Assembly (NCBI GenBank): GCA_030681515.1
Contig: JAUXSE010000053.1
Coordinates: 124,001 to 188,000 of the forward strand
DNA: 64,000 bases
Direction of reading: 5' to 3'
Source: Geothrix sp.
GTDB taxonomy: Bacteria > Acidobacteriota > Holophagae > Holophagales > Holophagaceae
Shown: positions 5,601 to 30,613 of the stretch, piece after piece
Numbering within the stretch: the stretch's first letter is position 1
How the letters are laid out: each line of letters starts with the position of its first letter
Translations under genes and position numbers: made by a program
Notes under the pieces: model-generated
Seen by the model: only the letters and a program-made list of their open reading frames with translations
The model's database searches: none
Told to the model about the DNA's origin: nothing

Positions 5601-6039
5601 GGGTGTGCTCCTAAAAGGGAGGGTTGGGAGGGCGAGGTCAAGAGACATCCGCCAGGAGTTCCGAGGCTCGGGGCATCAGTCGCAATGAAGTTGGATCAGA
5701 CGCCTTCAACCTAATTGGGCGAAACCACGGCGTCCACCAAAAAGCCCAACTGGTTCCTTATGTTGTGACACCCGGCACAAGGGCGTTTCTACATTTTTGT
5801 GAATTCATGGAAACAGATGTGTTACCAATGGATACCCGCTGTGTCGCCTATTCTTTCCACCCCGGTGCAAGCTGTCCCCACACCTGACCCCGTCGGGTGG
5901 AAATCCGCCTCCATCGCGTTCAATGGCACGACCGGCATCCCTTGCCGTTCGGCCCTGGATTGCCCTTTTTTGCCTCGTGTGGTCTTCGAACTTTCATTTG
6001 TTCCCGACGGGTCCGACAACAGGCCCAACGGAGCACACC
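5601..6039. other. Divergent intergenic region, porin / tetraheme cytochrome
   Basis: About 440 bp, relatively AT-rich in the middle, carrying the promoters for the porin (leftward) and the first cytochrome operon (rightward). I see the CRP-like palindrome described at 5764-5779 and an imperfect stem TTGGGC...GCCCAA around 5715-5755. No credible gene is visible. Confidence 0.6.
5764..5779. promoter_or_regulatory. CRP/FNR-family-like operator
   Basis: TGTGA-N6-GCACA matches 9 of 10 positions of the CRP-type consensus TGTGA-N6-TCACA. It lies about 260 bp upstream of the tetraheme start and about 165 bp upstream of the divergent porin. A similar site lies at 16615-16629. Function is inferred. 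Confidence 0.35.
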
Positions 6040-6738
6040 ATGCGCGCCTTCCTCAGCACCCTCGTCCTTGCCGCCGCCTCGACCCTCGTTTCCGCCGCCC
6101 CTCCCGCCACGGGTGTGGATGGAACCGCCCACGACCTCAGCATCACCGGCCTGAACTCCGTCACCATGGCCACCCGCTCCTGCGTGTTCTGCCACACGGT
6201 CCACAACGCTGGCGGCGGAAGCGGCTCGAAGCTCATTCCGGCATGGAACCACACCACCACCGTCTCGACCTTCACCATGTACAACAACACGAACCATCCT
6301 GGCGCCAGCCTCAAGGGCACCGTGGATTCCCAGCCCACCGGTCCCAGCCTGGCCTGCCTCTCCTGCCACGATGGCACGGTGTCCGTGGGTTCGCTGCTGA
6401 TCGCGCCCAGCGGCGGAGGAAACACGACCTACATCAGCGCCCGGGGCGGCGTCAGCCCGGGCACGGGCCGCATCAGTTCGGGCGCCGCGCTCATCGGCAC
6501 CGACCTCAGCAACGACCACCCCGTGTCCATCACCTACCAGGACAACCTGGACGCCTCGCTCCAGCCCGCGGCATCGCTGTCCGGCGTGCGCCTCTACCCG
6601 GAGAACGTGACGGGCGCGAAGGTCCAGTGCTCCTCCTGCCATGACGCGCACAATTTCGGGTCTCCCGGAACCACCGCGCCCTTCCTGCGGGTGACCATGG
6701 TGGGATCCTTCCTTTGCAAGAGTTGCCACAAGAAATAG
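6040..6738 (+). CDS. Tetraheme c-type cytochrome, OmcE-like
   Basis: Secreted cytochrome of 232 aa with signal peptide (MRAFLSTLVLAAASTLVSA) and four heme sites: CVFCH, CLSCH, CSSCH, CKSCH. Opening GTAHDL, the CVFCHTVH pair, the NDHPVSI segment and the SSCHDAH...FLRV...CKSCHKK ending match the layout I associate with OmcE-type tetraheme subunits that polymerise into extracellular filaments; that link is from memory of the family. A clear paralog lies at 14740-15408. Start chosen at the ATG that gives the signal peptide. It is followed at 135 bp by the 43-heme protein, probably in one transcript. Confidence 0.9.
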   Translation: MRAFLSTLVLAAASTLVSAAPPATGVDGTAHDLSITGLNSVTMATRSCVFCHTVHNAGGGSGSKLIPAWNHTTTVSTFTMYNNTNHPGASLKGTVDSQPTGPSLACLSCHDGTVSVGSLLIAPSGGGNTTYISARGGVSPGTGRISSGAALIGTDLSNDHPVSITYQDNLDASLQPAASLSGVRLYPENVTGAKVQCSSCHDAHNFGSPGTTAPFLRVTMVGSFLCKSCHKK

Positions 6739-6873: not shown

Positions 6874-9800
6874 ATGGCCACTACCATGACCACCCCCTTC
6901 CGGACACTCGTATCCCGCCTGCTCGCCCTGGCCTTCAGCACGGGTCTGCTCGCCCAGCCCGCCCCCCGCGCCTGCCGGGAATGCCATCCCAAGGTCCTGG
7001 AGACAGCCGCTCCCGCCACAGGCCACAAGCCACTGCTGGATGGGAACTGCATGTGGTGCCACAAGAAGCACGGCAAGGCCAACGTCAACATCCTTCATGA
7101 GGGCGGTGGCCGGGCGCTGTGCGTCCTCTGCCACAAGACCTTCAAGCCAGCCCCGGGCGAACGCGCCGCGCACCGGTTCGAGGCCAAGGGCGAATGCAGC
7201 GCCTGCCATGGATCCCACGACACGGGCCAGAAGAAGCTGCTCCGCAAGACCACGCAGGATCTCTGCCTGTCCTGCCACGGAGACATCCAGGCCCGCATGG
7301 CCTCGGCCCACCCCCACGCCGCCACGGACGATTGCCTGGCCTGCCACCAGCCGCATCCATCCCCCATCCAATACCTCCTGAAGCCGGGCACGCCGGGCCA
7401 ATGCGATACCTGCCATGACGCCGCCGGCCTTTCGAAATCCCACGCCAGCCTGCCGTTGAAGGCCGGTACCTGCGCCACCTGCCACGATCCGCACGGATCG
7501 AAGACCAAGGGCATGTTGCGGGACCACCAGCACGCTCCCTTCACCCCTGGCCAGTGTTCCGATTGCCACCCGCCCAGCGCCGGGGACCAAGTCCAGCTCG
7601 TCAAGCCCGTTCCCGGCCTTTGCCTGGACTGCCACGGCGCCATCCCCGGCCCCGGGGTCCAGCACCAGCCCGTGAAGGCCGGTGAATGCCTCACCTGCCA
7701 CCTGCCCCACGCATCCAATCGCAAGGGGCTTCTCCGGGCCGCGCCACAGGATCTCTGCCTCCAGTGCCACACCGGCCTCCTCAAGGGCAAGTCCCAGCAC
7801 CCGCCCTTCCGCGAGGGCGCCTGCCTGGATTGCCACAAGCCCCACGAGTCCGCCGGAAAGAAGCTCCTCTCCGCCCCGCCGGAAAAGCTCTGCCTCCAAT
7901 GCCACGAGGATCTGGTCAAGGGCAAGAGCCAGCACGCGCCTGCCGCAGGTGGCGACTGCCTCGCCTGCCATGAATCGCACTCCAGCGCCATCGCGCCGAT
8001 GCTGAAGCAGCCGGCCACTGCCCTCTGCGCCACCTGCCACACGGATGTGGTGAAGGGGCCCATCCCGCACGATCCCGCCAAGAAGGGCCAGTGCCTCGCC
8101 TGCCATTCGCCCCACGCCGCGCCCTCCGCCAGCCTCATCAAGGTCGGCCAGCTGGAAACCTGCGGATCCTGCCACAAGAAGACCGTCACGCGGAAGATGC
8201 TGCACGGACCCGTCAAGACCGGCGCGTGCAGCGCCTGCCACACGCCCCACGGCGGCACCCTCCCCAAGCTCCTGAAGGACGACACGGACAGGCTCTGCAC
8301 GGGCTGCCACGACGGCCTCCTGAAGGGCGACACCAAGCACAAGCCGGCCTTCGGCAAGGGTGGCTGCCTGGCCTGCCACGATCCCCACGGCGGTGACCGG
8401 GCGAAGTACCTCAAACGGGAACAACCCGACAACTGCTATGCCTGCCACGCCCGCAAGGACAAGTTCCAGGTCGTCCACGCCCCCGTGAACGATGGCGCGT
8501 GCAGCGGCTGCCACAACCCGCATTCCGGCACGGGACCCAACATGCTCGTGGCCCCCACCATCCAGGCCACCTGCGCGACCTGCCACGACCTGGATGACGC
8601 CGCCCTGCGCCAGAAGCACCTGGTGGCTTCCCTGCGGAAGGTGGACTGCGCGGGCTGCCACGAGCCCCACACCTCCATGAAGAAGGGGCTCATCCAGAAG
8701 GGGACGCACGCGCCGTTCACGGAAAGCTGCTCCAACTGCCACATGGGCAGCGAAGGCTGCGCCACCTGCCACACCCTCATGGATCCCGGCAAGATCCCCG
8801 GCGTGGGCCTGCATCTGGCCCGGCGCATGCCCCAGCTCTGCACCAGCTGCCACACGGATCTGGAGCCCAAGGGCGCCGCCGTCCAGCACGAGCCCTTCCG
8901 CAAGGGCGAGTGCACGGCCTGCCACAGGCCCCATGCCTCCCGCCACGAAGCCCTGCTCGATAAACCCAAGAGCCTGACCTGCCTCACCTGCCACCCGCAG
9001 CCCGAGACACCGAAGAACGGGTGGGGCCACAAGCCCTATCTCGACAGCAACTGTCGCATCTGCCACGTGGCCCATTTCACCGAGACCAAGGGCCTGCTCC
9101 GCCAGAAGCCCATCGAACTCTGCCTGAGTTGCCACCAGGACATCGCCACGGCGGTGAAGGCCAAGCACCCCCACCAGCCCGCCGCGGCCGGGGACTGCCT
9201 GACCTGCCACGCCGCCCACACGGGAACGCTCGCCAAGGGCCTGAACCAGCCGGCGGATCAGCTCTGCGTCTCCTGCCACGACGTGAAGGATCTCCAGAAG
9301 CCCCACCAGGGCTACCCCGTGTCGGCCAAGGACTGCGTGACCTGCCATGATCCCCACGGGTCGAACCATGGGGGGATGCTCCGCGCCAGCGCCCACGCGC
9401 CCGTGGCCAAGGGCGACTGCGCGACCTGCCATGCCAGCCCGTCGGCCGCCAAACCCTTCGCCACCAGGGAAGCCCTCCCCGGCCTCTGCTTCACCTGCCA
9501 CCAGAGTGTGGCGGCCGCGGCCAGGAAGGCGTTCCCCCACCCGCCGGTGGCCAACGGCGAATGCGCCTCCTGCCACTCGCCCCACGCTTCGAGCCTGCCC
9601 TCCCTGCTCGCCGGTCATCCCAGCGATCTCTGCCTCCAGTGCCACGAAGGGCTGCGCGAAGAGGCCGCCAAGGCGATGTCGAAACACAAGCCCGTGCTCG
9701 AAGGCAAGTGCTCCATATGCCACACCGCCCACGGCGGCGATGCCAGGGGATTCCCCCGCGGCGACATCCAGGCCGTCTGCGTGAACTGCCACAAGGACAA

Positions 9801-9954
9801 GCGGACCAGCCACCCCACCGCCAACCACCCCACCTCGGACCGGACCATCAAGGCGACCGGCAAGGCACTCTCCTGCCTCTCCTGCCACCAGCCGCACTTC
9901 TCCGGGAACCGGAATCTGCTCTCGGTCACGGGATGCGACGCCTGCCACAAGTAG
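6874..9954 (+). CDS. Giant multiheme c-type cytochrome with 43 CxxCH motifs
   Basis: A 1026-aa secreted protein with a signal-like N-terminus (RTLVSRLLALAFSTGLLAQ) and, by my count, 43 CxxCH sites, about one heme per 24 residues. The chain is built of repeats of the doubled CxxCH type: a unit of roughly 45 aa with two hemes, a His a few residues after each site, and recurring KGxxQHxP and LCLQCH strings. Such density suggests a long wire-like electron conduit or heme-based capacitor in the periplasm or on the surface. No S-layer, lipobox or membrane anchor is seen. Start is ATG 6874 or ATG 6886; neither has a strong ribosome site. It sits downstream of the tetraheme gene and convergent with the PPIase gene. 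Confidence 0.93.
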   Translation: MATTMTTPFRTLVSRLLALAFSTGLLAQPAPRACRECHPKVLETAAPATGHKPLLDGNCMWCHKKHGKANVNILHEGGGRALCVLCHKTFKPAPGERAAHRFEAKGECSACHGSHDTGQKKLLRKTTQDLCLSCHGDIQARMASAHPHAATDDCLACHQPHPSPIQYLLKPGTPGQCDTCHDAAGLSKSHASLPLKAGTCATCHDPHGSKTKGMLRDHQHAPFTPGQCSDCHPPSAGDQVQLVKPVPGLCLDCHGAIPGPGVQHQPVKAGECLTCHLPHASNRKGLLRAAPQDLCLQCHTGLLKGKSQHPPFREGACLDCHKPHESAGKKLLSAPPEKLCLQCHEDLVKGKSQHAPAAGGDCLACHESHSSAIAPMLKQPATALCATCHTDVVKGPIPHDPAKKGQCLACHSPHAAPSASLIKVGQLETCGSCHKKTVTRKMLHGPVKTGACSACHTPHGGTLPKLLKDDTDRLCTGCHDGLLKGDTKHKPAFGKGGCLACHDPHGGDRAKYLKREQPDNCYACHARKDKFQVVHAPVNDGACSGCHNPHSGTGPNMLVAPTIQATCATCHDLDDAALRQKHLVASLRKVDCAGCHEPHTSMKKGLIQKGTHAPFTESCSNCHMGSEGCATCHTLMDPGKIPGVGLHLARRMPQLCTSCHTDLEPKGAAVQHEPFRKGECTACHRPHASRHEALLDKPKSLTCLTCHPQPETPKNGWGHKPYLDSNCRICHVAHFTETKGLLRQKPIELCLSCHQDIATAVKAKHPHQPAAAGDCLTCHAAHTGTLAKGLNQPADQLCVSCHDVKDLQKPHQGYPVSAKDCVTCHDPHGSNHGGMLRASAHAPVAKGDCATCHASPSAAKPFATREALPGLCFTCHQSVAAAARKAFPHPPVANGECASCHSPHASSLPSLLAGHPSDLCLQCHEGLREEAAKAMSKHKPVLEGKCSICHTAHGGDARGFPRGDIQAVCVNCHKDKRTSHPTANHPTSDRTIKATGKALSCLSCHQPHFSGNRNLLSVTGCDACHK

Positions 9955-10012: not shown

Positions 10013-11608
10013 CTACTTCTTCGGGCCCCGCGCTACCCCGGCGGCGGCCCGGGCGTCCAGTTCACGGTCCACCAGGGCCCGGCCGTTCGCCTTGAGGTAG
10101 TCCACGCGAACCGCCTCCCGGCATTCATCCAGAGGCGGCACGGGACCCGGCCGGCGCTCCAGCACGTTGAAGAGCATGAACCCATCCGGGCCCAGCATGG
10201 GGCCCACGGGCTGGCCGAGGGAGCCCGAAAGCAGGGCCTGCATCAAGGACGGCGGCACCAGGTTCCGGAGCGCGGAGACTTCCACCCATCCGGGATCGGG
10301 ATCGCCCGTGGCCTCGGCGCTGCCGAACCGCTCCGCGGCCGCGCGCCAGGCCATGCCCGCGCGCACCTGGTTCAGCGCTTCATCCACCCGGTCCTTCGAT
10401 TCGGCCACCAGCACCTGCAGCCGCAGGGCCCCGATCGGCCGGAACCGTTCCGGGAAGGCCTCCTGGTGCCGCCGCAGATCGGGGTCGGGCACCGGGACGG
10501 AGGCCAGGAAATTCCCGGAGAACCTGGCCATGGCCTTTTCGCGCTCGTCCCTCCAGAGGGCGGCCTGGATATCGGGCCGCCGGTCCAGGCCCTGTTTCTG
10601 GGCCGCCGCCGCGAGCCGGATCTCGTCCGCCAGACCCTCCATGAACCGGGCCTTGGTGGCCGCGCCGAGGGAATGGCTCTGACCCATGGTCTTCAGCACG
10701 ACCTGGAGATGGGCCTTCAGCGCCTTCAGGGAAATCCTGGCGCCGGCCACCCGGCCTGCCACCCGCTTCTCATCGCCGGGAAGCGCCTCCGTGGTCCGGT
10801 CGGAGCCCAGCACGCCCAAGTCGGGGACGAGCGGATGGCGGGTCCGGAGGGTTTCGAGCGCCGCGTCGCGCTTCATCGCGGTCTGGGCATCCGCCGCCTG
10901 TTTCATCAGCGCCGGCCGTGCCGCGGGGAAATCCTCCGCCTTCGGGCGCCGCGCTTCCCAGACCTTGGCCACGTGCCAGCCGAACTCGCTCTTGAAGGGA
11001 CCCACCAGGGCCCCGATGGAAGCCGCGAACACCGGTTCCCCGAACGCGGCCACCAGCTCCCTCTGCCGGATCCAGCCCAGGCTCCCCTGGTTCGTGGCCG
11101 CGCTGGGATCCTTCGAAACGTCCGCCGCGACCGTCTCGAAGGGCTCCCCGCCCTGGAGGCGTTTCAGCGCCGCCTCGGCCTCCTCCTGGGCCTTGCACAG
11201 CACATGGGAAACCCGGCGCTGCTCGCCCTGGGCCAGGTAGGCGGCAAGGACCTGGTCCTCGGTCATGGCGGGGTGGCCGGGTCGCGCCTCCAGGTAGGCT
11301 TTCCCGAGAATCGCCCTCCGTCCCTCCTGCCGATCCTCCTGCCACGCGGGCGTCTTCAGCAATCCCTTGGCCTCGGCCCAGCTCCAGGCTGCCTCCAGCC
11401 GGGCGAGTCTTGCGGCCACGGCCTCGACGGAAAGGGACGGATCCGCGGATCGGATCGCCTGCTGTTTCGCCTGGACCGGGATGCGCGGGGCCTCGGCGGC
11501 CATGGCGGTCATGGCGGCCATGGCCGCACCTGCCAGAGCCGGAACCGCCAGGCAGCCAGCCGCACCGCGCCCGGCAAGGGCGTTCCATCCGAAGGACATG
11601 GGGTGCAT
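10013..11608 (-). CDS. Periplasmic parvulin-type peptidyl-prolyl isomerase (SurA/PpiC-like)
   Basis: Folding factor of 531 aa, probably exported. Start placed at the ATG behind AGGAG (MHPMSFGW...), followed by a hydrophobic Ala-rich signal-like stretch. A canonical parvulin domain spans about residues 140-240 (RRVSHVLCK, then GSLGWIRQRELVAAF and GPFKSEFGWHVAKV); a second, more divergent one lies in the C-terminal third (LRLQVLVAES...GWVEVSALRN). Last gene of the barrel, cytochrome, PPIase set, so its likely job is folding or assembly of the barrel or the cytochromes. Confidence 0.88.
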   Translation of the reverse strand: MHPMSFGWNALAGRGAAGCLAVPALAGAAMAAMTAMAAEAPRIPVQAKQQAIRSADPSLSVEAVAARLARLEAAWSWAEAKGLLKTPAWQEDRQEGRRAILGKAYLEARPGHPAMTEDQVLAAYLAQGEQRRVSHVLCKAQEEAEAALKRLQGGEPFETVAADVSKDPSAATNQGSLGWIRQRELVAAFGEPVFAASIGALVGPFKSEFGWHVAKVWEARRPKAEDFPAARPALMKQAADAQTAMKRDAALETLRTRHPLVPDLGVLGSDRTTEALPGDEKRVAGRVAGARISLKALKAHLQVVLKTMGQSHSLGAATKARFMEGLADEIRLAAAAQKQGLDRRPDIQAALWRDEREKAMARFSGNFLASVPVPDPDLRRHQEAFPERFRPIGALRLQVLVAESKDRVDEALNQVRAGMAWRAAAERFGSAEATGDPDPGWVEVSALRNLVPPSLMQALLSGSLGQPVGPMLGPDGFMLFNVLERRPGPVPPLDECREAVRVDYLKANGRALVDRELDARAAAGVARGPKK

Positions 11609-11683
11609 GGGTGGCTCCTGGAATCCGGGACGACCCCGGGGGTTCAAAGGCCCAGGCATGAGAAGGCTGCCCATGGGCCGGGA

Positions 11684-12892
11684 TCAGTAGCGGGTCTGCA
11701 CATGGTCATGGCCATGACAGGTGAGCGTGCAGGTCCCGCGGCCCAGACCCGCCCGCTGGAAGGAGGGGCCCCCGACGGAGGAGGCGGTCACCACCGACCG
11801 GTCGAATTCGATCAGGGCGGCCTGACGGAGGGAGCCGTGGGAGGCGTGGCAGGTGGCGCAGGTGGCGGGCTCGCCGTAGCCCGGCATGTAGGCACCGCCC
11901 CGGCCCGGCCCGCGGTCCTTCGGCGAACGGATCCCGAGCACCGCCGCGGCTTCCGAAAAGGCGGAGGCCTGGGGCCGGGTGGATCCAGAGCCGCTGTTCG
12001 TGAACCCGTTCAGATGCTGGGCGTGGAAGGGGAAGGACTGGTTGGCGGTGATGGACTGCTTGTCGTGGCAAAGGAAACAGAGATCGTTGACCCGCTCGCC
12101 GAGCCGGGCCAGATCCTTCTCCCGGCCGAAGGGCGCCTTCAGCAGGGAGGCGTGGGGGGACACATGGGGCCCCCGGGCGCCAGCGGGATCGGGGTTGTCG
12201 TGGCAGGAGACGCAATCGAGCCGGCCCTGGAACGCGGAGGTGCGGAGGCTGGGCAGTTCCGGACGGGCGGCGGCGGTGGAACCGATGGCATGGCTGGAGG
12301 CGGCGCCCTTGGCGAAGAGCGACCCCAGATCCGGATGGCCGGAGGGAAGCGGCGCGGCCTCGGGCCCCGCGTGGCAGCCGAAGCAGACCTCGGCCACGGA
12401 CATGGGCTTGCGATCCACCAGCTGGCCGCGGGTGTCGAAGGCCGTGGCCCGCAACCGGCCCCGTTCCTTCCCGTGGGGATCGTGGCACCCCGAGCAATCC
12501 TGGGCCAGACGGACGGTCCGGGTGCCGGCCTTGACGGCGCGGCTGTAGGTTTCGGCCCGGCGGGAGCTGAATCGGTTCTTCAAGTGCCCGGATCCCTGCC
12601 CGCTCCAGGCGGGCAGCTTGGGCGCACCATCCGCGGTGGGTGCCGCATTCAAGCCTTCGTGGCAGGAAAGGCAGATCTGATCAATGGTGCCGCGGCCTGG
12701 CCTGGACCCCTTCAGCGTCATGCCGCCCATGGCCCCCTTGTGTCCCTTGTGGCAGGCGGCGCAGTTCCGGTGGACGCTCGAGGCCCCAACCTTCGCGCGG
12801 GCCAGGCCCTGGGCCGGCACCGGAACGGGCGCCTGGGGCAGCAGGATAGTCGTGAGGCAGACCAGCGTCAGCCGCCGGAGGATGCCCCTCAT
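11684..12892 (-). CDS. Octaheme c-type cytochrome, candidate conduit partner of the outer-membrane barrel
   Basis: Exported 402-aa cytochrome with an N-terminal hydrophobic signal (RRLTLVCLTTILLPQ). Seven CxxCH sites (CAACH, CLSCH, CSGCH, CFGCH, CVSCH, CFLCH, CATCH) plus one unusual CxxxCH (CTLTCH) near the C-terminus, so eight hemes are possible. It overlaps the barrel gene by 4 nt (ATGA), which implies tight stoichiometry; barrel plus multiheme cytochrome is the arrangement of porin-cytochrome conduits (MtrAB, OmbB-OmaB). By analogy it would sit in or under the barrel and carry electrons across the outer membrane. Confidence 0.88.
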   Translation of the reverse strand: MRGILRRLTLVCLTTILLPQAPVPVPAQGLARAKVGASSVHRNCAACHKGHKGAMGGMTLKGSRPGRGTIDQICLSCHEGLNAAPTADGAPKLPAWSGQGSGHLKNRFSSRRAETYSRAVKAGTRTVRLAQDCSGCHDPHGKERGRLRATAFDTRGQLVDRKPMSVAEVCFGCHAGPEAAPLPSGHPDLGSLFAKGAASSHAIGSTAAARPELPSLRTSAFQGRLDCVSCHDNPDPAGARGPHVSPHASLLKAPFGREKDLARLGERVNDLCFLCHDKQSITANQSFPFHAQHLNGFTNSGSGSTRPQASAFSEAAAVLGIRSPKDRGPGRGGAYMPGYGEPATCATCHASHGSLRQAALIEFDRSVVTASSVGGPSFQRAGLGRGTCTLTCHGHDHVQTRY

Positions 12893-14655
12893 CGCCCGAG
12901 CCTCACGCAGGCCGTGTCGAACCAGCGCAGCAGGTCCAGGGTGACTCGCTCGCTGCGGATCCCGTTTTCCATCCTGGATACCTCATACCGGACGCGGAGC
13001 GAAACCTGCCTGAAGCTGAGATCGGCCCAGGTGGACACGGTCGTCGTCGGCGCCGCCAGAGAGGAATCGTAGCGCAGGACCATCACGCCGAAGGGCACCT
13101 TCCAGAGGCGGGTCGTCAGCCCCACCGATTGGTTGCGGCTCTGGGCGTCCAGGTCCGATCCGGCCCAGGCCAGCCCCAGGGTGGAGGCCGAGGCCGTCAG
13201 GCTGCGGTGGGTGCTGCTGTACCCCATGGAACCGGTGATGGACGTATTTCCCATCCGGTAGGATCCGTTGGCCATGAGGTCGGCGTTCCTCGTGTCCATT
13301 CCCTTCTGGGTCATCTCCGCGTCGCGCTTGTAGTCCCCGGCGAGGAAGAGGTGGAAGTTCCCGCGGGTCTGCACCTGGCCCGTCACCCGGGCCCAGTCCA
13401 TCTTCCCCTGGCCCACATTTTCAGCAATCCGCCACAGGTCCGCCGTGAACCCGAAGCTTCCGGTCTGCCGCATCCGGCGCCGCAGCATGTCCTGGGCCAG
13501 CTCGGAGGGAACGAAATCCGGCGGATACTCCTCGCGCACCCGGCGGTCGAAGCTCCAGTCGCTGAGGAAGAACAGGCTGTGGCGGATGAGTTCTGGAACA
13601 TCGCCCCCGCGGGCGATGCCGAGGTTCATGGTGGTGGTGGTGCTGGAGGCATCCCGGTGGTCGAAGGTCTGGCGCAGGCCCGATACGCCGAGATCCGCGT
13701 GGATGCGCCAGTCCTGGTTCAGGGCGTAGGCGCCACCCAGGATCGCGGAGCTCGTGCGCGTGCCCAGGCCCAGATCCCTGGTGGCGGATTGGCTGAAGGC
13801 ACCGGTGGCATGCGCGTTCCATCGGCCCGAGGTGAACACCATGGATTCGGAAGCGAAGGCCGTTGCGGTGCGGTACTGTCCCGCCGTGATCGCCCCGGCG
13901 GAGGCCGTGGTCAGGGAATGCCAGAAGCCGGTGATGGGGCCGTAGAAGGTGGTTCCGAGGTCGAACCAGCGGGTGGTCCCCGTATCCTGGATCTGCGACC
14001 GCGTGCGGAGCATCCACTCGCGCCCGATATGGGATTCCGTATCCAGGCCCGCGATGAACATCCGCCATCCAAAGGCAGAACCGGGGGCCGTGAACTCCTG
14101 CCGGGTGGCCTGGAAGATCGCCTGGGTGGTTCCGTTCCGCTGGTTTGCCTCCAGTTTCCAGAGGGACCAGTCGTCCTTCTGGTCCCCCAGCCGGGAGGAT
14201 CCGTGCCGATAGGACAGGCGGATATCCTGGAGGAGCCTGCTGTTGAAGCTCATTCCGGCCCCCCAGACATCGCCCTTCACCCGGCCCGAATCGAAAAGAT
14301 CCGGCGTCTGGGAATGCTGGTAGTCCACGTGGAGACGGAAGGGGCGGTAGGGAAAGAGGCTGATCCGGGCCCCGTAGCGGCTGAGGCCCGACTCCGAATC
14401 GGATTCGGCGCCATAGGACAGCCGGTTGTACTCCACCGCGCCGTTCACGGCCAGCGCCCCCAGGCGGTAGGTGAAGATGGGCAGGCCCGCCTCCACCTCG
14501 TACAGGGCCTGGGTCGTGGAAGCGGAGGGAGACTGGCTGATCTGCCACTGGTTGTAGTGAAGCTGGAACCGCTGGTTCAGGAAAAGCGGGCAGTCCTCCG
14601 CCGGGGCCGTGGTGGCCGCGCCCAGGAGAAGCAGCGGAAGGAGGCGGAGCTTCAC
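12889..14655 (-). CDS. Outer-membrane beta-barrel protein of a porin-cytochrome conduit
   Basis: A 588-aa exported protein: signal peptide MKLRLLPLLLLGAATTAPA, then a long run of amphipathic strands with turns typical of a large barrel of about 20 or more strands. I see no plug or TonB box. It overlaps the octaheme gene by 4 nt. Sequence is not obviously MtrB or OmbB, but position and length fit a barrel that houses a multiheme cytochrome. It lies downstream of the second tetraheme gene, from which a strong hairpin separates it. Confidence 0.8.
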   Translation of the reverse strand: MKLRLLPLLLLGAATTAPAEDCPLFLNQRFQLHYNQWQISQSPSASTTQALYEVEAGLPIFTYRLGALAVNGAVEYNRLSYGAESDSESGLSRYGARISLFPYRPFRLHVDYQHSQTPDLFDSGRVKGDVWGAGMSFNSRLLQDIRLSYRHGSSRLGDQKDDWSLWKLEANQRNGTTQAIFQATRQEFTAPGSAFGWRMFIAGLDTESHIGREWMLRTRSQIQDTGTTRWFDLGTTFYGPITGFWHSLTTASAGAITAGQYRTATAFASESMVFTSGRWNAHATGAFSQSATRDLGLGTRTSSAILGGAYALNQDWRIHADLGVSGLRQTFDHRDASSTTTTMNLGIARGGDVPELIRHSLFFLSDWSFDRRVREEYPPDFVPSELAQDMLRRRMRQTGSFGFTADLWRIAENVGQGKMDWARVTGQVQTRGNFHLFLAGDYKRDAEMTQKGMDTRNADLMANGSYRMGNTSITGSMGYSSTHRSLTASASTLGLAWAGSDLDAQSRNQSVGLTTRLWKVPFGVMVLRYDSSLAAPTTTVSTWADLSFRQVSLRVRYEVSRMENGIRSERVTLDLLRWFDTACVRLGR

Positions 14656-14739: not shown

Positions 14740-15408
14740 CTACTTGATGTGGCAGGCGGTGCAGAGGGCTGAGCCGCTCATGGTCACGCGCAGGAAGGGC
14801 GCGAGGGTGTTGCTGTGCACGTTGTGGCAGGAGGCGCACTGCACCTTTTCGGAACCGAGGGTGCCGAAGAGCTTCACGCTGTTGGCCAGGCCGAGCACCG
14901 TCGCCTTGGCCACCAGGCCGGTATCGGTGGCGGGGTAGGTGATGGAGATCGGGTGATCGTTGGTGAGATCCTTGCCGAGCAGGGCGCTGCCGCTGGCAAT
15001 GAAGCCGGTGGCGTTCACGCCGCCCGCCGCGGTGTAGGTCAGGGACACGATGTCGTTGGGCAGGTTGATCATGTTGCCCACGGCCTGGGTGCCGTCATGG
15101 CAGGTGAAGCAGGCCATGCTGGCGCCGGTGGGGGTAGCGTCCACCACACCCTGCAGGCTGGATCCGGGATTGTTGGTGGTGTTGTACATCGTGAAGCCCG
15201 TGGTGACCGTGGTGGTCTTGTTCCACAGGGGCACGATCTGGCTGGCGACGGCGGCGGAGCCGTGGGGCGTGTGGCAGAACACGCAGGTCTGCGTGGTGTT
15301 GGTCCTGGCACCGGAACCCGTGGCGCTCAGGTCGTGCTTGGTGCCCAGGATCTGGGCGCCGAGGCTCATCGAGCCGGCGGCCAAAAGGACGACGAGAAGG
15401 GATTTCAT
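14740..15408 (-). CDS. Tetraheme c-type cytochrome, OmcE-like paralog
   Basis: A 222-aa secreted cytochrome, paralog of the product at 6040-6738. Signal peptide MKSLLVVLLAAGSMSLGAQ, then GTKHDL, four heme sites (CVFCHTPHG, CFTCHDGT, CASCHNVH, CTACH), TNDHPISITYP and FLRV...CTACHIK. These are the landmarks of the OmcE-type tetraheme family whose members form heme-stacked extracellular filaments in Geobacter and relatives. Ribosome site GAGGTGA stands 4 nt before the ATG. The NHL gene is 48 bp upstream. Filament formation is inferred. Confidence 0.9.
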   Translation of the reverse strand: MKSLLVVLLAAGSMSLGAQILGTKHDLSATGSGARTNTTQTCVFCHTPHGSAAVASQIVPLWNKTTTVTTGFTMYNTTNNPGSSLQGVVDATPTGASMACFTCHDGTQAVGNMINLPNDIVSLTYTAAGGVNATGFIASGSALLGKDLTNDHPISITYPATDTGLVAKATVLGLANSVKLFGTLGSEKVQCASCHNVHSNTLAPFLRVTMSGSALCTACHIK

Positions 15409-15456: not shown

Positions 15457-16512
15457 CTACTGCACGGCGGGAGAGGAAGCGGGGGCTTCCTTTTCCGCTC
15501 GCAAATACTGGAATTTCTGGATGCGGCCATTGATCTGATCGGCCACGTAGATGCCTCCATCGGCGCCGACGGCGATGCCGTTGGGCGCCTGGAACTGGCC
15601 CCTGCGCACGCCACCCTGACCCACGAAGGTCAGGATTCGGCCCTCCTGGTCGAAGACCTGGAAGTTGCTGAAGGTGCCGTCCACCACATAGAGGTTGCCG
15701 TCGGGATCCACGGCGATGCCCTTGGGGCGGGCGAACTGGCCCGGAAGGTCACCGACCTTGCCGAAGGCGCGCAGGAACTTGCCGTTGAAGTCGAAGATCT
15801 GGATGCGGAAGTTGCCCGTATCGGCCACCGCGAAGCCGGTGCCCGGCACGATGCAGACATAGGACGGGAAGTTGAACTGCCCCTCCTCGCTGCCCCGGCC
15901 GCCGATGGTCTTGAGGTGCTTGAAGGCCCGGTTGTAGAAGCGCACCGAATGCTCGTCGCCGTTCACCACGATCAGGAGATCCCGGGCCTCGTCCACCGCC
16001 AGGCCCACGGGCCGGCTGATGCCATCCGCCTTGCCCAAAGCGCCCAATTGCCGGCCTTCCTTGTCGAAGGCCACCACCTGATGGGTGTTGGCGCTGGCGG
16101 CGAACACCATCTTCGAATCCACCGCCAGCCCCGTGGGGGTGGGCAGCGCGGCGCCGCTGAGGCTGGAAAAGGCCCAGATCTTCTTGTTCGCCGGGTCCAT
16201 GGCGATGATGCCGAGGGTGAAATCGCCCACGAAGATCACGCCTTTGTCATCCACCGCCACCGTGAGGGGGCGCTGAAGCCAGATCACGTCTTCGGATTTC
16301 CCCGCCAGCCGATCAATGAAGCTGCGTTTCTTCTTGGCGCTCACATCAAAGGCATTGCGGTACTCGGCCACCCACTTGATGCGGGCCGGCGCGGGCGGAG
16401 CGGGCCAGACGAGCACTTCGTCCACGGGCGCCGCCTTCTGGGCGGCGAGCGGCACCACCGCGCCCGCGGCGAACGCGAGGCCAGCGAACAGCAGGGTGGC
16501 TGGTTTGGACAT
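15457..16512 (-). CDS. Secreted NHL-repeat beta-propeller protein
   Basis: A 351-aa exported protein (signal ending near PLAAQ) with about six NHL-type blades: repeated segments such as GLAVD, GIAVDPDGNLYVVD, GIAVGADGGIYVAD and RIQIFDFNGKFLRAFG. NHL propellers recur beside multiheme cytochrome clusters, where they are thought to act as scaffolds or binding partners. First gene of the minus-strand tetraheme/barrel/cytochrome/PPIase set and divergent from a second NHL gene. No catalytic motif is visible. Confidence 0.88.
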   Translation of the reverse strand: MSKPATLLFAGLAFAAGAVVPLAAQKAAPVDEVLVWPAPPAPARIKWVAEYRNAFDVSAKKKRSFIDRLAGKSEDVIWLQRPLTVAVDDKGVIFVGDFTLGIIAMDPANKKIWAFSSLSGAALPTPTGLAVDSKMVFAASANTHQVVAFDKEGRQLGALGKADGISRPVGLAVDEARDLLIVVNGDEHSVRFYNRAFKHLKTIGGRGSEEGQFNFPSYVCIVPGTGFAVADTGNFRIQIFDFNGKFLRAFGKVGDLPGQFARPKGIAVDPDGNLYVVDGTFSNFQVFDQEGRILTFVGQGGVRRGQFQAPNGIAVGADGGIYVADQINGRIQKFQYLRAEKEAPASSPAVQ

Positions 16513-16822
16513 GCTTTCGGCCTTCCGGATGTCTTGCGTCGGCCAACGTCACAGGAACCTGTCAGCTGACCCCTCAAAATAGGCTCCATAGACGAACATT
16601 GGGTCATCTATTTATGTGACTTCAGTCACCTGACTTTTTTTTCATATCAAGTTTTATGTTCTGCAACCGCGCATCGTGAAGAAGAACTCAACCGTAAATT
16701 TGAGACATAGATCATGCATTCGTCATGAAACGACAAAAGGGCCTATTCTTATGGCAATTCTGGCCCTGGGCCTGGATCGCCACCCCCGAACCCTGTTTGG
16801 CTCCTTCGCGGAGGTCAATCTC
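16513..16822. other. AT-rich divergent promoter region between two NHL operons
   Basis: About 310 bp, clearly more AT-rich than the surroundings. It holds the CRP-like palindrome at 16615-16629, an inverted pair TGACCC...GGGTCA around 16567-16605, and T- and A-rich stretches suited to promoters in both directions. The rightward frame is open across part of it, but the GGAGG-supported start is at 16823. Confidence 0.6.
16615..16629. promoter_or_regulatory. CRP/FNR-family-like operator
   Basis: TGTGA-N6-TCACC, 9 of 10 matches to the CRP-type consensus, with a tight GTGAC-TTCA-GTCAC palindrome. It sits midway between divergent NHL/cytochrome operons (about 100 bp from the leftward start, 195 bp from the rightward one), so one regulator could control both. 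Inferred. Confidence 0.4.
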
Positions 16823-18205
16823 ATGAACGGCCGGTTCATCCCTCTTCGACGGACGATGCTGGCCTGCGCTTGCCTGGTCCTGGGTGTCCCGGGCCTGGTT
16901 GCCCAGGCCACCCTCCCGGTGGCCACGGCCCTGCGATCCTATGACCAGGGATTGCGCGAACCCGTGCGCCTGGCCACGGATGCCGCCGGCCGGCTCTACA
17001 TCGCGGACCCCCGCCTGGGCATCGTCACCGTCCGCGACGAATCCGGCCGGCTGCTCGCCGTCCAGCGCGGCTTCGACAAGCCCCTGGGCGTGGCGGTGGA
17101 TCCTTCGGGCCGGATCTTCATCTGCGAAGCGGGCAAGGGCCGGGTCGCGATCTTCACGCCGGGGTGGATTCCCGCCGGGAGTCTCGGCCAGGGTATTGGC
17201 GAATTCCAGATGCCCAACCACATCCAGATCACGCCCGATGGTCTCGTCTACGTGGTGGACAGCCGGGCCAACCTGGTGAAGGTCTACGGCCCCAACGGCC
17301 TGCTGGTCCGGCAGTTCGGCGGCTACGGCGCGCTCGCGGGCCAGTTCGACTTTCCCACGGGCCTCACCGTGACCCCCGCCGGAGAGATCGTCGTGTCCGA
17401 CCAGGGCAATGAGCGGATCCAGGTCTTCGATCTGGACGGAACCTTCCTCCGCGCCTTCGGAAAAAAGAACATGATCGGCACCAACAGCACCTTCGGGCGC
17501 GTGCAGGGGCTTCAGTCCGATGCCCAGGGCCGCCTCTATCTGGCGGATTCCTTCCGGGGCGTGGTGACGGTGATGACCTCGGCCGGCATCCCCCTCGGGA
17601 CCATCGGCACCTTCGGATCGGGCCCGGGCCAGCTCACGGGCCCCGCCAGCCTGGTGGTGGATCGCAACAACCGCCTCTTCGTGGCCACCCCCGGCAACAC
17701 CCGGGTGGAGGTCTTCGGCCTCGATACCTACACGGATCCCCATATCCTGTTCGCCAGCCTGGTGGTGGAACCCGGCACGCTCGAACGGAACCGTCCGATT
17801 CCCCGGCGCCAGATCCCCGCCTGGCGCGCCCGCCTCAGGGACTCCCAGAGGAACCGGGACGACGATGTCTCCCCTGAGAACAGAGACGATGAGGACGACG
17901 CCCCTCCCCGCCGGAATCTGGTGTCGGTGCTGATCAAGCTCCCGGGCGTGTCCCCGGCCTCCATCCTCCAAGGCTCCATCACGGCCAACGGCGTCTCCCC
18001 GGCCCATGTGCCCGGCGCCTTCATCGGTGATTTCGACGGCGATGGCCTCTTTGAATTCCGCGCCTGGTTCGACGAGCCCCGGCTGGTGGCGACCATGCCC
18101 GACGGGGAGGCCTTCCTGGTGCTTTCGGGACGGCTGGCCGATGGCCGCGCCTTCGAAAGCATCGCCGAGGTGAGAGTCATCAACCGGACGGGGGGTGTCC
18201 AGTGA
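16823..18205 (+). CDS. Secreted NHL-repeat beta-propeller protein with extended C-terminus
   Basis: A 460-aa exported protein: signal peptide around MLACACLVLGVPGLVAQ, then about six NHL blades (RLYIADPRLGIVTV, GVAVDPSGRIFIC, LVYVVDSRANLVKVY, EIVVSDQGNERIQVF, RLYLADSFRGVVTV) to about residue 310. A charged linker (RNRDDDVSPENRDDEDD) leads to a C-terminal beta domain containing GDFDGDGLFEF, a Ca-binding-like DxDxDG loop. Start chosen at ATG 16823 behind GGAGG rather than upstream starts. The stop overlaps the GTG of the 13-heme cytochrome (GTGA), so the two are probably partners. Confidence 0.87.
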   Translation: MNGRFIPLRRTMLACACLVLGVPGLVAQATLPVATALRSYDQGLREPVRLATDAAGRLYIADPRLGIVTVRDESGRLLAVQRGFDKPLGVAVDPSGRIFICEAGKGRVAIFTPGWIPAGSLGQGIGEFQMPNHIQITPDGLVYVVDSRANLVKVYGPNGLLVRQFGGYGALAGQFDFPTGLTVTPAGEIVVSDQGNERIQVFDLDGTFLRAFGKKNMIGTNSTFGRVQGLQSDAQGRLYLADSFRGVVTVMTSAGIPLGTIGTFGSGPGQLTGPASLVVDRNNRLFVATPGNTRVEVFGLDTYTDPHILFASLVVEPGTLERNRPIPRRQIPAWRARLRDSQRNRDDDVSPENRDDEDDAPPRRNLVSVLIKLPGVSPASILQGSITANGVSPAHVPGAFIGDFDGDGLFEFRAWFDEPRLVATMPDGEAFLVLSGRLADGRAFESIAEVRVINRTGGVQ

Positions 18206-20703
18206 TCCGCTTCCCCGCCACCCTCGCCCTTCTGGTCGCCGCCAGCCTCCCGCTCCTCGCCACGGATCCGCCCCATACCGGCGGGGCTGGCAACATCCAG
18301 TGCGTGAGCTGCCACAAGCTGCACAACGCCCCCGGTGGGGTGCTCACCCTGGTGGCGGGCAACACCAATCTTTGCATGAGCTGCCACGTCTCGGGGGGCT
18401 CCGCCACCAACCAGGCTTTCGTGGCCGCCGACCAGGCCATCCCCGCTGGCCTGGCCGGGGCCACCGCCGGCGGCACCTCCCACCGCTGGGATTCGGGGCC
18501 CCAGGGCCGGATCACCAAGGGCACGCCCAACACCTCCACGGGGGTCATCACGCCGTCGGGCGTCTACACGGGCGCCTACGCTTCCACCATCGAGATCAAG
18601 ATCTCCACCGCCGGGGCCACGGGAACCGCCAGGTACGACTGGCGCCAGACCATCAACGGCACCACCACCTTCGGGATCGCCACCACGGCCGTGGCCACCA
18701 CCATCACTCCCGCGATCCTGGGCGCCACCGGCGTCTCGCTGGCCTTCTCCGGCACCGGAACCTTCGTCCTGAACGACATCTTCTACCTCTACATGCGCAC
18801 GGACCTGAGGAACCCGGTCTCCGCGGCCATGTCCGGCCGCCTGGAGGGCGGGAAGATCATGTGCTCCACCTGCCACGATCAGCACTTGCAGGCGAATGCG
18901 CCCTTCGACCCCACCTCCTCCCAGACCTACACCGCCGGAACCACCAGCAACCGCCACTTCCAGCGGGTGCGGAACGACGACGGCGCCATGTGCGGCGATT
19001 GCCACGCCGCCCGCAACGTGGGCAAGGGGGGGACCTCCCATCCCGTGAACCTGCCCGTGGCGGGGGCCGCCAACACCAGGACCCCCACCACGGTGCCCCT
19101 CACCGTCAGCGGCAACGCGCATTGCCTCAGCTGCCACGATATCCACAAGGCCCCCACCACCACCCTTCCCGCGGGCATGTTGCTGCGCGTGAGCAACACC
19201 ACGGCCCTCTGCACGGACTGCCACACCCTCGCCGACACCGCCACGGCCAACACCCACACCAACCCCACCAGCGGGATCCTGTGGCCCGGGGATGGCTACG
19301 GCGGAAGCACCTACCCCGCCATCGTTGACACCACCCTGCGCGGCGCCTGCAAGAACTGCCACACTCCCCACGGCTGGCCCGATGCCACCAACCCGGGCGG
19401 CAAGTACGCCTTCGCCCTCGGCGCCCGCCAGGACAACCTGTGCCTCTCCTGCCACGACGGAACCCCCGCCAAGGATGCCCGGACCCAGATCCTCAAGACC
19501 GTCCGCCATCCGGTGGCCCGCACCACGGGCGGCCGCCTCGTGGGCTGCGCCGACTGCCACAACCCCCACATGGCCCTGCCCGGCGTGCACACCTACGCGA
19601 CCACCGCCACCCTGGACCGCAACCGCATCCGCACCGCCGCCGGCGCCAACCTCATCGGCTCGCTCAAGGGCGCCGACGGTGTCCGTTTCAACTTCAGCGT
19701 CATGGCCAACTGGGCCGTCCCCGCCACGACGAACTACACCAGGCTCGCGGGCGGATCCCCCGCCGTGCCCATCAGCGGCGCCGAGTTCGAGTACCAGGTC
19801 TGCTTCAAGTGCCACACCAGCTACGATCCCGTGGCCTCCACCCTGACCACCCCCGCGATCCGGACCGTGGCCTGGGGCGGCGTCACGAACTACTACAGCA
19901 CCGGCACCGCCAGGTTCACCAGCGGTAGCGCCGCCGTCACGGGCACCGGCACCACCTGGGTGGCCACCATGGTGGGGATGTACATCCAGAAGAACCTGGA
20001 CGCTCCGGCCTACCGCATCACCGCCGCCACGGCCACCAGCATCACCCTGGCCTCGGCCTATGCCGGGGTGACGGACGCCGCGGCCGGGGCCTACACCATC
20101 ACCCGCGAAGAAACCAACCTGGCCCAGGAGTTCAACCCGGGCAATGCCTCGGGGCATCCCGTGGTGACGGGCCTCAGCAACTACACCAACTCCGCCACCC
20201 CGAAGAACCTGACCGCAGGATCGCTGAGGGCCCCCTGGAACGTGAACCCCGGCACCCAGACCATGCTGTGCTCGGACTGCCACAACACCGACGCGGCGAC
20301 CCCCGCGGCCCAAGGCCCCCACGGCTCCGCCGCCCAGTTCATGCTGCGGGGCGCCAATGCCGCCAACTGGCCCGCCGTCACCCTCGCGAGCCGCGCCAAC
20401 AGCTGGTGCTGGAACTGCCATGGCGCCACCACCAACAATACGCACACCAGGAGCGATCACGCCTCCGCCCTGTGCTACCACTGCCACATCACGGTGCCCC
20501 ACGGGGGCAAGGTGGCGCGCCTCATGGCCACCAACACCGCGGGCATGCCCGCCCGCTACGCCTACCAGAACAACAAGACGAACGTCTGGATCCGCTCCTT
20601 CACGAAGGCTGCCGCCTCCTCCTATACCAAGGGCAACTGCGGTTCCGCCCAGAGCGGCTGCACGACCCACAGCTTGGCGTCCACCTCCACCAACTCCTGG
20701 TAG
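18202..20703 (+). CDS. 13-heme c-type cytochrome with beta-rich insertions
   Basis: An 833-aa exported cytochrome starting at GTG 18202. Signal peptide (FPATLALLVAASLPLLA), then 13 CxxCH sites unevenly spread: two at the start, a 110-residue heme-free beta-type stretch, eight more, a second heme-free region of about 130 residues (near 560-690), and three near the end. The C-terminal CGSAQSGCTTH resembles a degenerate wide-spaced site. Thr/Ala/Gly-rich segments suggest immunoglobulin-like or adhesive inserts, as in surface cytochromes. Translationally coupled to the preceding NHL gene. Confidence 0.9.
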   Translation: MIRFPATLALLVAASLPLLATDPPHTGGAGNIQCVSCHKLHNAPGGVLTLVAGNTNLCMSCHVSGGSATNQAFVAADQAIPAGLAGATAGGTSHRWDSGPQGRITKGTPNTSTGVITPSGVYTGAYASTIEIKISTAGATGTARYDWRQTINGTTTFGIATTAVATTITPAILGATGVSLAFSGTGTFVLNDIFYLYMRTDLRNPVSAAMSGRLEGGKIMCSTCHDQHLQANAPFDPTSSQTYTAGTTSNRHFQRVRNDDGAMCGDCHAARNVGKGGTSHPVNLPVAGAANTRTPTTVPLTVSGNAHCLSCHDIHKAPTTTLPAGMLLRVSNTTALCTDCHTLADTATANTHTNPTSGILWPGDGYGGSTYPAIVDTTLRGACKNCHTPHGWPDATNPGGKYAFALGARQDNLCLSCHDGTPAKDARTQILKTVRHPVARTTGGRLVGCADCHNPHMALPGVHTYATTATLDRNRIRTAAGANLIGSLKGADGVRFNFSVMANWAVPATTNYTRLAGGSPAVPISGAEFEYQVCFKCHTSYDPVASTLTTPAIRTVAWGGVTNYYSTGTARFTSGSAAVTGTGTTWVATMVGMYIQKNLDAPAYRITAATATSITLASAYAGVTDAAAGAYTITREETNLAQEFNPGNASGHPVVTGLSNYTNSATPKNLTAGSLRAPWNVNPGTQTMLCSDCHNTDAATPAAQGPHGSAAQFMLRGANAANWPAVTLASRANSWCWNCHGATTNNTHTRSDHASALCYHCHITVPHGGKVARLMATNTAGMPARYAYQNNKTNVWIRSFTKAAASSYTKGNCGSAQSGCTTHSLASTSTNSW

Positions 20704-20751: not shown

Positions 20752-22032
20752 ATGACTTTGGCTTGGATGCGCGGCCTGAAACGCTTCTTCCGCTCCCCGG
20801 CGACCATCGTCGGGGAGTTGCTGTTCCTCACCCTGGCCATGGTGGTGGGTGCCAGCCTGCCCCAGACCGGTACCGCCTCCGCCGCCGATCTGGCCCGCCT
20901 CCGCCAGCACGGCCGCTGGATCACCGCGCTGGTGGACACCCTGGGCCTGGACCACATATTCCAGAGCCCCGCGTTCCTGCTCGCGCTGGCCATGGCCACG
21001 ATCTCCCTCTGCATCGTGCTGCTGGAGCAGCTCCGCCGCCTCCCCGCCGCCTGGCGGCAGCCGCCCACCGAGGCCCAATTCAGGGTGGCCCCGTTCCAGG
21101 CGGACTTCACCCGACCCGCCCGTGGCACCGCCCCGGCCCCAGAAACCCGAATCCGCACCACGGGCCGCCTGGGACTGGCCGGATCCCCGCTGTTTCACCT
21201 GGGCCTGCTCCTGGTGATCGTCGCCGCCACCCTCCGGGCCCTGTTCGGGGTCGAGGCCGCCGTGGACCTGCTGGAGCGGGAGACCCTGCCAGCCACCGTG
21301 GAGGCCTGGGGGGCCCAATGGCCGGGGCCCCTGGCGAAACCCTTCCGCCTGGACGAACCCCTGACCCTGGAGGCCGTGCGGATCTCCCGGTACGAATCCG
21401 GGGATCTCAAGGAGCTCGGCGTGCGGTTCACCCTTCCGGGTTCGGGATCCCACCACCTGGGCATCAATCAGGAGTTCCAGACCTCCCGCGGCCGGGTGTA
21501 CGTGAACTCGGATGTGGGGCCCGCGGCCCTGGTGGAGTGGTCCGATGGCGTGTCGGGCATCCACCGGGAGGCCCTGCTGCTGGCCCGGGAGGGACCCGGA
21601 ACCTTCTCGGCCCGGACCAGCGGGGACATGGCGCTCCACGCCCGGATCCACCTGTCCTCATCGGAGGATCGCCCCTCCTCGATGGAACTCCGCGTGACGG
21701 AAGGTCCTCTCCTGCTTTTCGTGGGGCGGCTGGCGCCGGGAGAGACCGCCACGATCCCGGGGGGCCGTACGGTCCGGCTGGAGGGCCTGCCCTTCTGGGC
21801 GCGTCTGCACGGCAACCGGGATCCGGGGCTGTGGCTGGTCTATGCGGGGTTTGCCGTGGGCCTGATCGGCGCCTCGCTGACCTACGCCGTGATCCGGGTG
21901 GACGAACGCGTCCAGATCACTCCCGGGGATGGCCAGGAGCGGGTGCGGATCGCCCTCCGGCCCCACCGCTTCGCCCCGCTCTTCCGCGATCGCTTCGAGC
22001 GCCTGGTACGCGACCATGGTGGACAGCCATGA
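20752..22032 (+). CDS. resB: Cytochrome c biogenesis protein ResB/CcsB-like
   Basis: Membrane component of the system II (Ccs) heme-handling and ligation complex, 426 aa. Hydrophobic segments lie near residues 17-35, 75-95 and 145-165, followed by a large periplasmic domain and a last segment near 365-385 (LWLVYAGFAVGLIGASLTYAVI), the ResB layout. It precedes a lipoprotein gene and ccsA with 4-nt overlaps, giving a compact maturation operon directly behind the 13-heme cytochrome, whose product needs it. Confidence 0.85.
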   Translation: MTLAWMRGLKRFFRSPATIVGELLFLTLAMVVGASLPQTGTASAADLARLRQHGRWITALVDTLGLDHIFQSPAFLLALAMATISLCIVLLEQLRRLPAAWRQPPTEAQFRVAPFQADFTRPARGTAPAPETRIRTTGRLGLAGSPLFHLGLLLVIVAATLRALFGVEAAVDLLERETLPATVEAWGAQWPGPLAKPFRLDEPLTLEAVRISRYESGDLKELGVRFTLPGSGSHHLGINQEFQTSRGRVYVNSDVGPAALVEWSDGVSGIHREALLLAREGPGTFSARTSGDMALHARIHLSSSEDRPSSMELRVTEGPLLLFVGRLAPGETATIPGGRTVRLEGLPFWARLHGNRDPGLWLVYAGFAVGLIGASLTYAVIRVDERVQITPGDGQERVRIALRPHRFAPLFRDRFERLVRDHGGQP

Positions 22033-30473: not shown

Positions 30474-30613
30474 TCGGCGTATGCAGGCACGGGAGCGGAG
30501 AATACGACAGCTGCGAAATTTGCCAGCGGCTGATGAAAATGGGCAGCTACCCATTGGCTTGGTATGAGAACCACTACCAGCCAAGCCTCTTCAGTCTGGA
30601 GCCGGAGGCGTAA
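30470..30613 (+). CDS. Small Cys-rich protein, 47 aa, candidate zinc-binding
   Basis: Starts at ATG 30470 overlapping the previous stop. Contains CRHG...CEIC, a possible C-H-C-C zinc site, within 18 residues. Last gene before the structured region upstream of rep. Confidence 0.5.
   Translation: MIGVCRHGSGEYDSCEICQRLMKMGSYPLAWYENHYQPSLFSLEPEA

Follow-up and report, generated by a model that had tools for sequence, protein, structure and literature searches.

This locus raises the open question of how electrons cross the periplasm to extracellular cytochrome nanowires. The stretch of DNA analysed, hereafter the window (64,000 nt), comes from a genome related to species of Geothrix (family Holophagaceae, Acidobacteriota). 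It encodes a multiheme cytochrome for which the original prediction, made from the sequence alone, had proposed 43 heme-binding motifs and a role as a periplasmic bridge or charge store. That prediction treated the protein as a single cytochrome, which was incomplete: it is a fusion of two known cytochromes with 26 and 16 hemes that are widespread as a pair, the 43rd motif is extra, and the gene is part of a larger conserved cluster.

Heme count and integrity of the repeat

Recounting by regular expression gave 43 CXXCH motifs in the 1026 aa of the open reading frame, at a mean spacing of ~23.5 residues, in agreement with the predicted coordinates, count and density (about one motif per 24 residues). 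There were no CX3CH or CX4CH motifs, and all 86 Cys residues were located inside CXXCH motifs. Shuffled sequences of the same composition contained a mean of 0.61 CXXCH motifs and a maximum of 5, compared to the 43 observed. The Pfam family Paired_CXXCH_1 matched 20 stretches of the protein (E=5.6e-201), and the regular doubled-heme repeat that had been described is therefore real.

The longest exact internal DNA repeat of the gene was 21 nt. Full-length copies with near-identical inter-heme spacings and 42 motifs were present in independent Geothrix genomes, isolates among them, and in related genera; the homologues from G. fermentans DSM 14018, G. paludis SG195 and G. fuzhouensis SG12 were 68−70% identical over their full length. 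Based on the short repeat and the same spacings in independent genomes, collapse or expansion of the repeat number during assembly, which the original prediction had named as what could overturn its count, was considered very unlikely and was rejected. The accompanying remark that few cytochromes reach this number was fair; however, the number is not exceptional, as cytochromes with 49 and 63 hemes have been reported (PMC7399161, PMC5566968). Two Geothrix genomes, G014 (loci L024 and L025) and G016 (L018 and L027), each carried two paralogous 42-heme clusters.

A fusion of 26-heme and 16-heme cytochromes

Split and fused loci were searched for in Acidobacteriota and in the phylum of locus L017, which is taken to be Desulfobacterota from the literature on the cluster, L017 itself belonging to a MAG labelled Proteobacteria. 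At L017, a 26-heme lipoprotein-like gene (10004−11932) was followed by a 16-heme gene (11961−13202) with its own signal peptide, the two together matching the fused protein in length, and the split between them coincided exactly with the variable junction of the Geothrix proteins. Adjacent 26-heme and 16-heme genes were found at 39 loci across the two phyla. In all 39, the genes shared a strand and were separated by a short gap, and the 26-heme gene preceded the 16-heme gene. The fused form, a single ORF, was found at 17 loci, comprising the window and 16 others. These were from Geothrix, two more Holophagaceae genera, and three other Acidobacteriota families (genomes G433, G595 and G386); L017's phylum contributed a single genome (L084). 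In a further Acidobacteriota family (G416), the copy was cut by the contig end.

The second signal peptide was gone in the fusions, and hemes 26 and 27 were mostly 23−28 residues apart, as for any adjoining pair. Since the two proteins can be fused without altering the usual distance between hemes, the end of the 26-heme protein and the start of the 16-heme protein should adjoin. One or several fusion events may lie behind these loci: FastTree and a quick IQ-TREE run placed the G595 and G386 fusions (L104 and L110) apart from those of Holophagaceae, yet a single fusion clade was not rejected (AU p=0.198, or 0.463 without L084).

Three side observations were made among these loci. The contig with the fused L084 gene (G204:C53) also carried a separate 26+16-heme pair (L085). 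Among loci L055−L087, a lipobox was present in the 26-heme genes of some lineages and absent from others, so the anchoring of this protein seems variable. Three loci of another Holophagae family (L090, L093 and L094) had a different pair of neighbouring cytochromes, with 11 and 13 hemes, in comparable surroundings.

A constant total of 42 heme sites

The 56 loci (39 split, 17 fused) were selected for open frames with 15−16, 25−26 or ≥42 motifs, such that other numbers or broken frames would escape; within this set, the sites summed to 26+16=42 in every locus when CX4CH was counted. The 26-heme module had 26 CXXCH motifs in 55 loci and 25 in L080, which has an N-terminal CX4CH. The 16-heme module had 16 in 51 loci and 15 in the other five, each with one CX4CH. 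Median pairwise identity across the loci was 36% for the 26-heme module and 35% for the 16-heme module.

The unfiltered list for these loci showed no other heme number among its top-ranked full-length 26-heme matches. A printed exception is the QYQD01 MAG, described with 26 and 12, not 16, hemes (PMC12246660). In the alignments, 26 non-motif His residues were conserved in the 26-heme module, one per heme, and 14 were conserved at ≥95% in the 16-heme module. The strict total of 42 suggests an electrical wire of fixed length, probably crossing the cell envelope and serving an extracellular nanowire.

The junction and the 43rd motif

All fused relatives had 42 motifs, compared to 43 in the window protein. 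The junction of the latter holds both CSNCH (residue 619) and CATCH (residue 629), while most relatives have a motif at the first position alone. In the sister proteins L018 and L024, which group with the window protein at 99% SH-aLRT, the first motif is lost and only the second is present. A likely history is that this clade acquired the second site, which in the sisters then took over from the first, while the window protein retained both.

An AF2 model computed without hemes had a pLDDT of 85 overall and fell below 50 in one stretch only, model residues 602−618 (protein residues 628−644), which includes CATCH 629. A heme number of 43 for the family was rejected; 42 is canonical and the 43rd CXXCH is an extra motif in the linker. 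Judged from its motifs, the window protein would carry at least 42 hemes, with CATCH 629 as a putative further site.

Neighbouring genes

The features of the cluster are listed in Table 1. The gene for cytochrome A lies upstream of the 42/43-heme gene on the same strand, and the block from the peptidyl-prolyl isomerase (PPIase) to the first NHL protein faces them on the other strand. This order was mostly kept in other Geothrix genomes with the 42-heme cytochrome. Both flanking tetraheme proteins matched OmcE (7TFS) along their whole chain, and the upstream gene, originally described as filament-type, was thereby confirmed as OmcE-like. The likeness to OmcE belongs to these two neighbours, not to the 43-motif protein. 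For the barrel, BLASTP gave no support for homology with the L017 barrel (E=0.47). The real start of cytochrome A is probably the ATG near 6040, and the PPIase may have an OscH-like role.

Table 1. Features of the cytochrome cluster, with positions in the window
Feature	Position	Strand	Remarks
OmcE-like tetraheme nanowire-type cytochrome A	5923..6738	+	7TFS E 5e-24; 9YUQ E 5e-26
42/43-heme cytochrome, 26-heme (OscI-like)+16-heme (OscJ-like) fusion	6874..9954	+	Sec-type N-terminus, without lipobox
26-heme module, hemes 1−26	6973..8742	+	Residues 34−623; 26 conserved distal His
Junction linker with extra CXXCH	8743..8837	+	CATCH, residues 629−633; gene-split point in other bacteria
16-heme module	8839..9948	+	Residues 656−1025
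PpiC/SurA-type peptidyl-prolyl isomerase	10013..11674	-	
7-heme cytochrome	11684..12892	-	4-nt overlap with barrel gene
Outer-membrane beta-barrel	12889..14655	-	~28 predicted strands; best VIA-align match MtrB
OmcE-like tetraheme nanowire-type cytochrome B	14740..15408	-	7TFS E 4e-34
NHL beta-propeller protein	15457..16512	-	
Second NHL beta-propeller protein	16676..18205	+	
13-heme cytochrome	18202..20703	+	
ResB-like cytochrome c maturation protein	20752..22032	+	

Relation to described systems

Three described systems bear on the pair. The osc operon of Geobacter sulfurreducens accompanies omcS (Shen 2025, as reported in PMC13194489); GSU2495 is a 26-heme protein (PMC12977616, PMC2996986) corresponding to oscI, with GSU2494 as oscJ, and both are listed as periplasmic (PMC13194489). 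A SEEP-SRB operon combines 26-heme and 16-heme cytochromes with a PPIase and a propeller (Skennerton 2017, as cited in PMC12246660). The OetABI conduit consists of a barrel with periplasmic and extracellular cytochromes (PMC10553843). From these descriptions, the 26+16-heme pair is therefore already known. The fused single-chain form appears to be new: the papers searched describe no such fusion, and the paper search found no published Geothrix cytochrome with 42 or 43 hemes, though one may exist.

The likeness to OscI/OscJ lies in the 26-heme protein and the company of a nanowire cytochrome (PMC12977616, PMC13194489), GSU2495 and GSU2494 being likened by published description. The order of 26 then 16 hemes was seen in the two modules of the window protein, as in all 56 loci. 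PPIase and propeller genes stood beside the pair in many, though not all, of 22 loci examined, and the window has both types. In contrast to the two genes of OscI/OscJ, the Geothrix protein is one ORF, and in place of the hexaheme OmcS-type filament gene of the Osc system its cluster has tetraheme OmcE-like genes. The SEEP-SRB/Oet systems share the 26+16 hemes, a PPIase upstream and a beta-propeller downstream, arranged as in L017; however, the SEEP-SRB 26-heme and 16-heme genes are separate. The PCC3 cytochromes (He 2017, PMC5566968) are similar in having very few residues per heme and in being proposed as envelope-spanning wires, but their heme numbers range widely, unlike the invariant total found here.

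Sequence and fold similarity to MtrA

A PDB sequence search with the 42/43-heme protein gave one match only, MtrA of 6R2Q (E=4.6e-12). The chain is taken as MtrA because the entry is titled ‘Structure of the Mtr complex’, although the sequence file gives the molecule another name. Foldseek returned the same chain (E=3.7e-6), and VIA-align gave MtrA a Z of 9.4 over 221 residues, with the next match at Z 4.5; no other solved structure matched convincingly. The NCBIfam DmsE model TIGR03508 matched eight stretches with 411.6 bits, about twice the cut-off of 192.2. MtrA and DmsE are decahemes, compared to the 42−43 hemes of the Geothrix protein. In MtrA, such units make a linear heme wire inside a barrel. 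The wire nature of the 42/43-heme protein is well supported.

Proposed role and alternatives

The reading that we favour, and to which we give somewhat better than even odds, is that this fused OscI-OscJ-type cytochrome acts within the cell envelope as an electron wire of fixed length and supplies a filament system of the OmcE type. The 26-heme and 16-heme rods, each of doubled-CXXCH units with bis-histidine ligation and MtrA/DmsE-like packing, would be joined into a linear heme wire. Electrons would enter from periplasmic or inner-membrane donors, travel from heme to heme as far as the outer-membrane barrel and the 7-heme cytochrome, and from there reach OmcE-type tetraheme filaments outside the cell. 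The PPIase and NHL proteins may aid the folding or export of the parts. The direction of electron flow, the contacts between partners and linear stacking along the whole 42-heme chain are presumed; the two modules meet at the low-confidence linker of the heme-free AF2 model (pTM 0.48), across which we infer a continuous straight wire.

The bridging wire of the original prediction gained support from the OmcE-like neighbour, the MtrA-type sequence and fold, and the co-occurrence of the barrel described below. Its periplasmic location, and a placement spanning the periplasm, we only infer; in a related conduit, one cytochrome was placed outside the cell by the OetABI papers, which conflicts with a role confined to the periplasm (PMC10553843). 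At MtrA spacing, 42 hemes would by our own estimate extend ~30 nm or more, near the scale of the periplasm plus outer membrane. Tentatively, and with the odds against it, the total of 42 (26+16, split or fused, in two phyla) could be a ruler, a two-rod wire matched to the distance between inner and outer membranes, with the fusion revealing end-to-end work as a single continuous wire across the periplasm. The fixed total at least suggests a testable length constraint. In the culturable genus Geothrix, the single-chain form supplies physical evidence for an end-to-end partnership between the 26-heme and 16-heme proteins of the osc/oet type, and it is a simple subject for structural and conductance studies.

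Alternatively, one end of the wire may thread the barrel as MtrA does MtrB, making a single chain from periplasm to surface. The best PDB matches of the cytochrome and barrel, MtrA and MtrB, are chains of one complex, and a barrel with periplasmic and extracellular cytochromes has the precedent of OetABI (PMC10553843). Of 77 Holophagaceae genomes, 13 had the 42-heme cytochrome; 12 of these also had the barrel, which was absent from all 64 others (Fisher p=3.5e-13, kinship ignored), the one discordant genome, with the cytochrome and no barrel, being 76% complete. However, the barrel gene is overlapped by the 7-heme gene, whose product could equally well be the plug. The barrel match itself (VIA-align Z 18.1 for MtrB) depends on a model with a pLDDT of 77 and has 8% identity, and its gross features are common to large barrels such as LptD, which ranked next at Z 15.1. 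Ushers and other large barrels also ranked close in Foldseek, so barrel size partly drives the match. A threaded wire is regarded as unlikely, at about one chance in a handful.

An assembly or anchoring part, serving as base, cap or folding platform of OmcE-type filaments rather than as the main current path, would suit the OmcE-like subunits and PPIase nearby and the description of the osc operon as a system for OmcS folding, secretion and morphology (PMC13194489). Against this, 26+16 hemes with conserved distal ligands would be a costly scaffold, and we consider it improbable. Still less credible is the charge store first suggested, a periplasmic capacitor without a fixed path: its high heme density (~24 aa per heme) fits, but a store should tolerate a variable heme number, as seen in PCC3 and in the large cytochromes (type 2) of Burkholderiales (PMC5566968, PMC7399161), and not the 42 sites of all 56 loci. 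That the protein is itself an extracellular cytochrome or filament subunit like OmcS, OmcE or OmcZ is highly implausible, for although it is secreted and clustered with filament-type genes, VIA-align gave no convincing match to filament cytochromes (OmcE at Z 2.4 over 82 residues) and GSU2495 and GSU2494 are listed as periplasmic (PMC13194489).

Other features of the window

Further along the window, an AbiEii nucleotidyltransferase toxin and a DUF6088/AbiEi-like partner form a type IV toxin-antitoxin pair (25876−27578, − strand). The region at 30564−45919 (+ strand) encodes a Rep_1 rolling-circle replication protein, an SLT transglycosylase and a run of long ORFs without a family match; it may be a non-tailed phage that has integrated, or another kind of mobile element.
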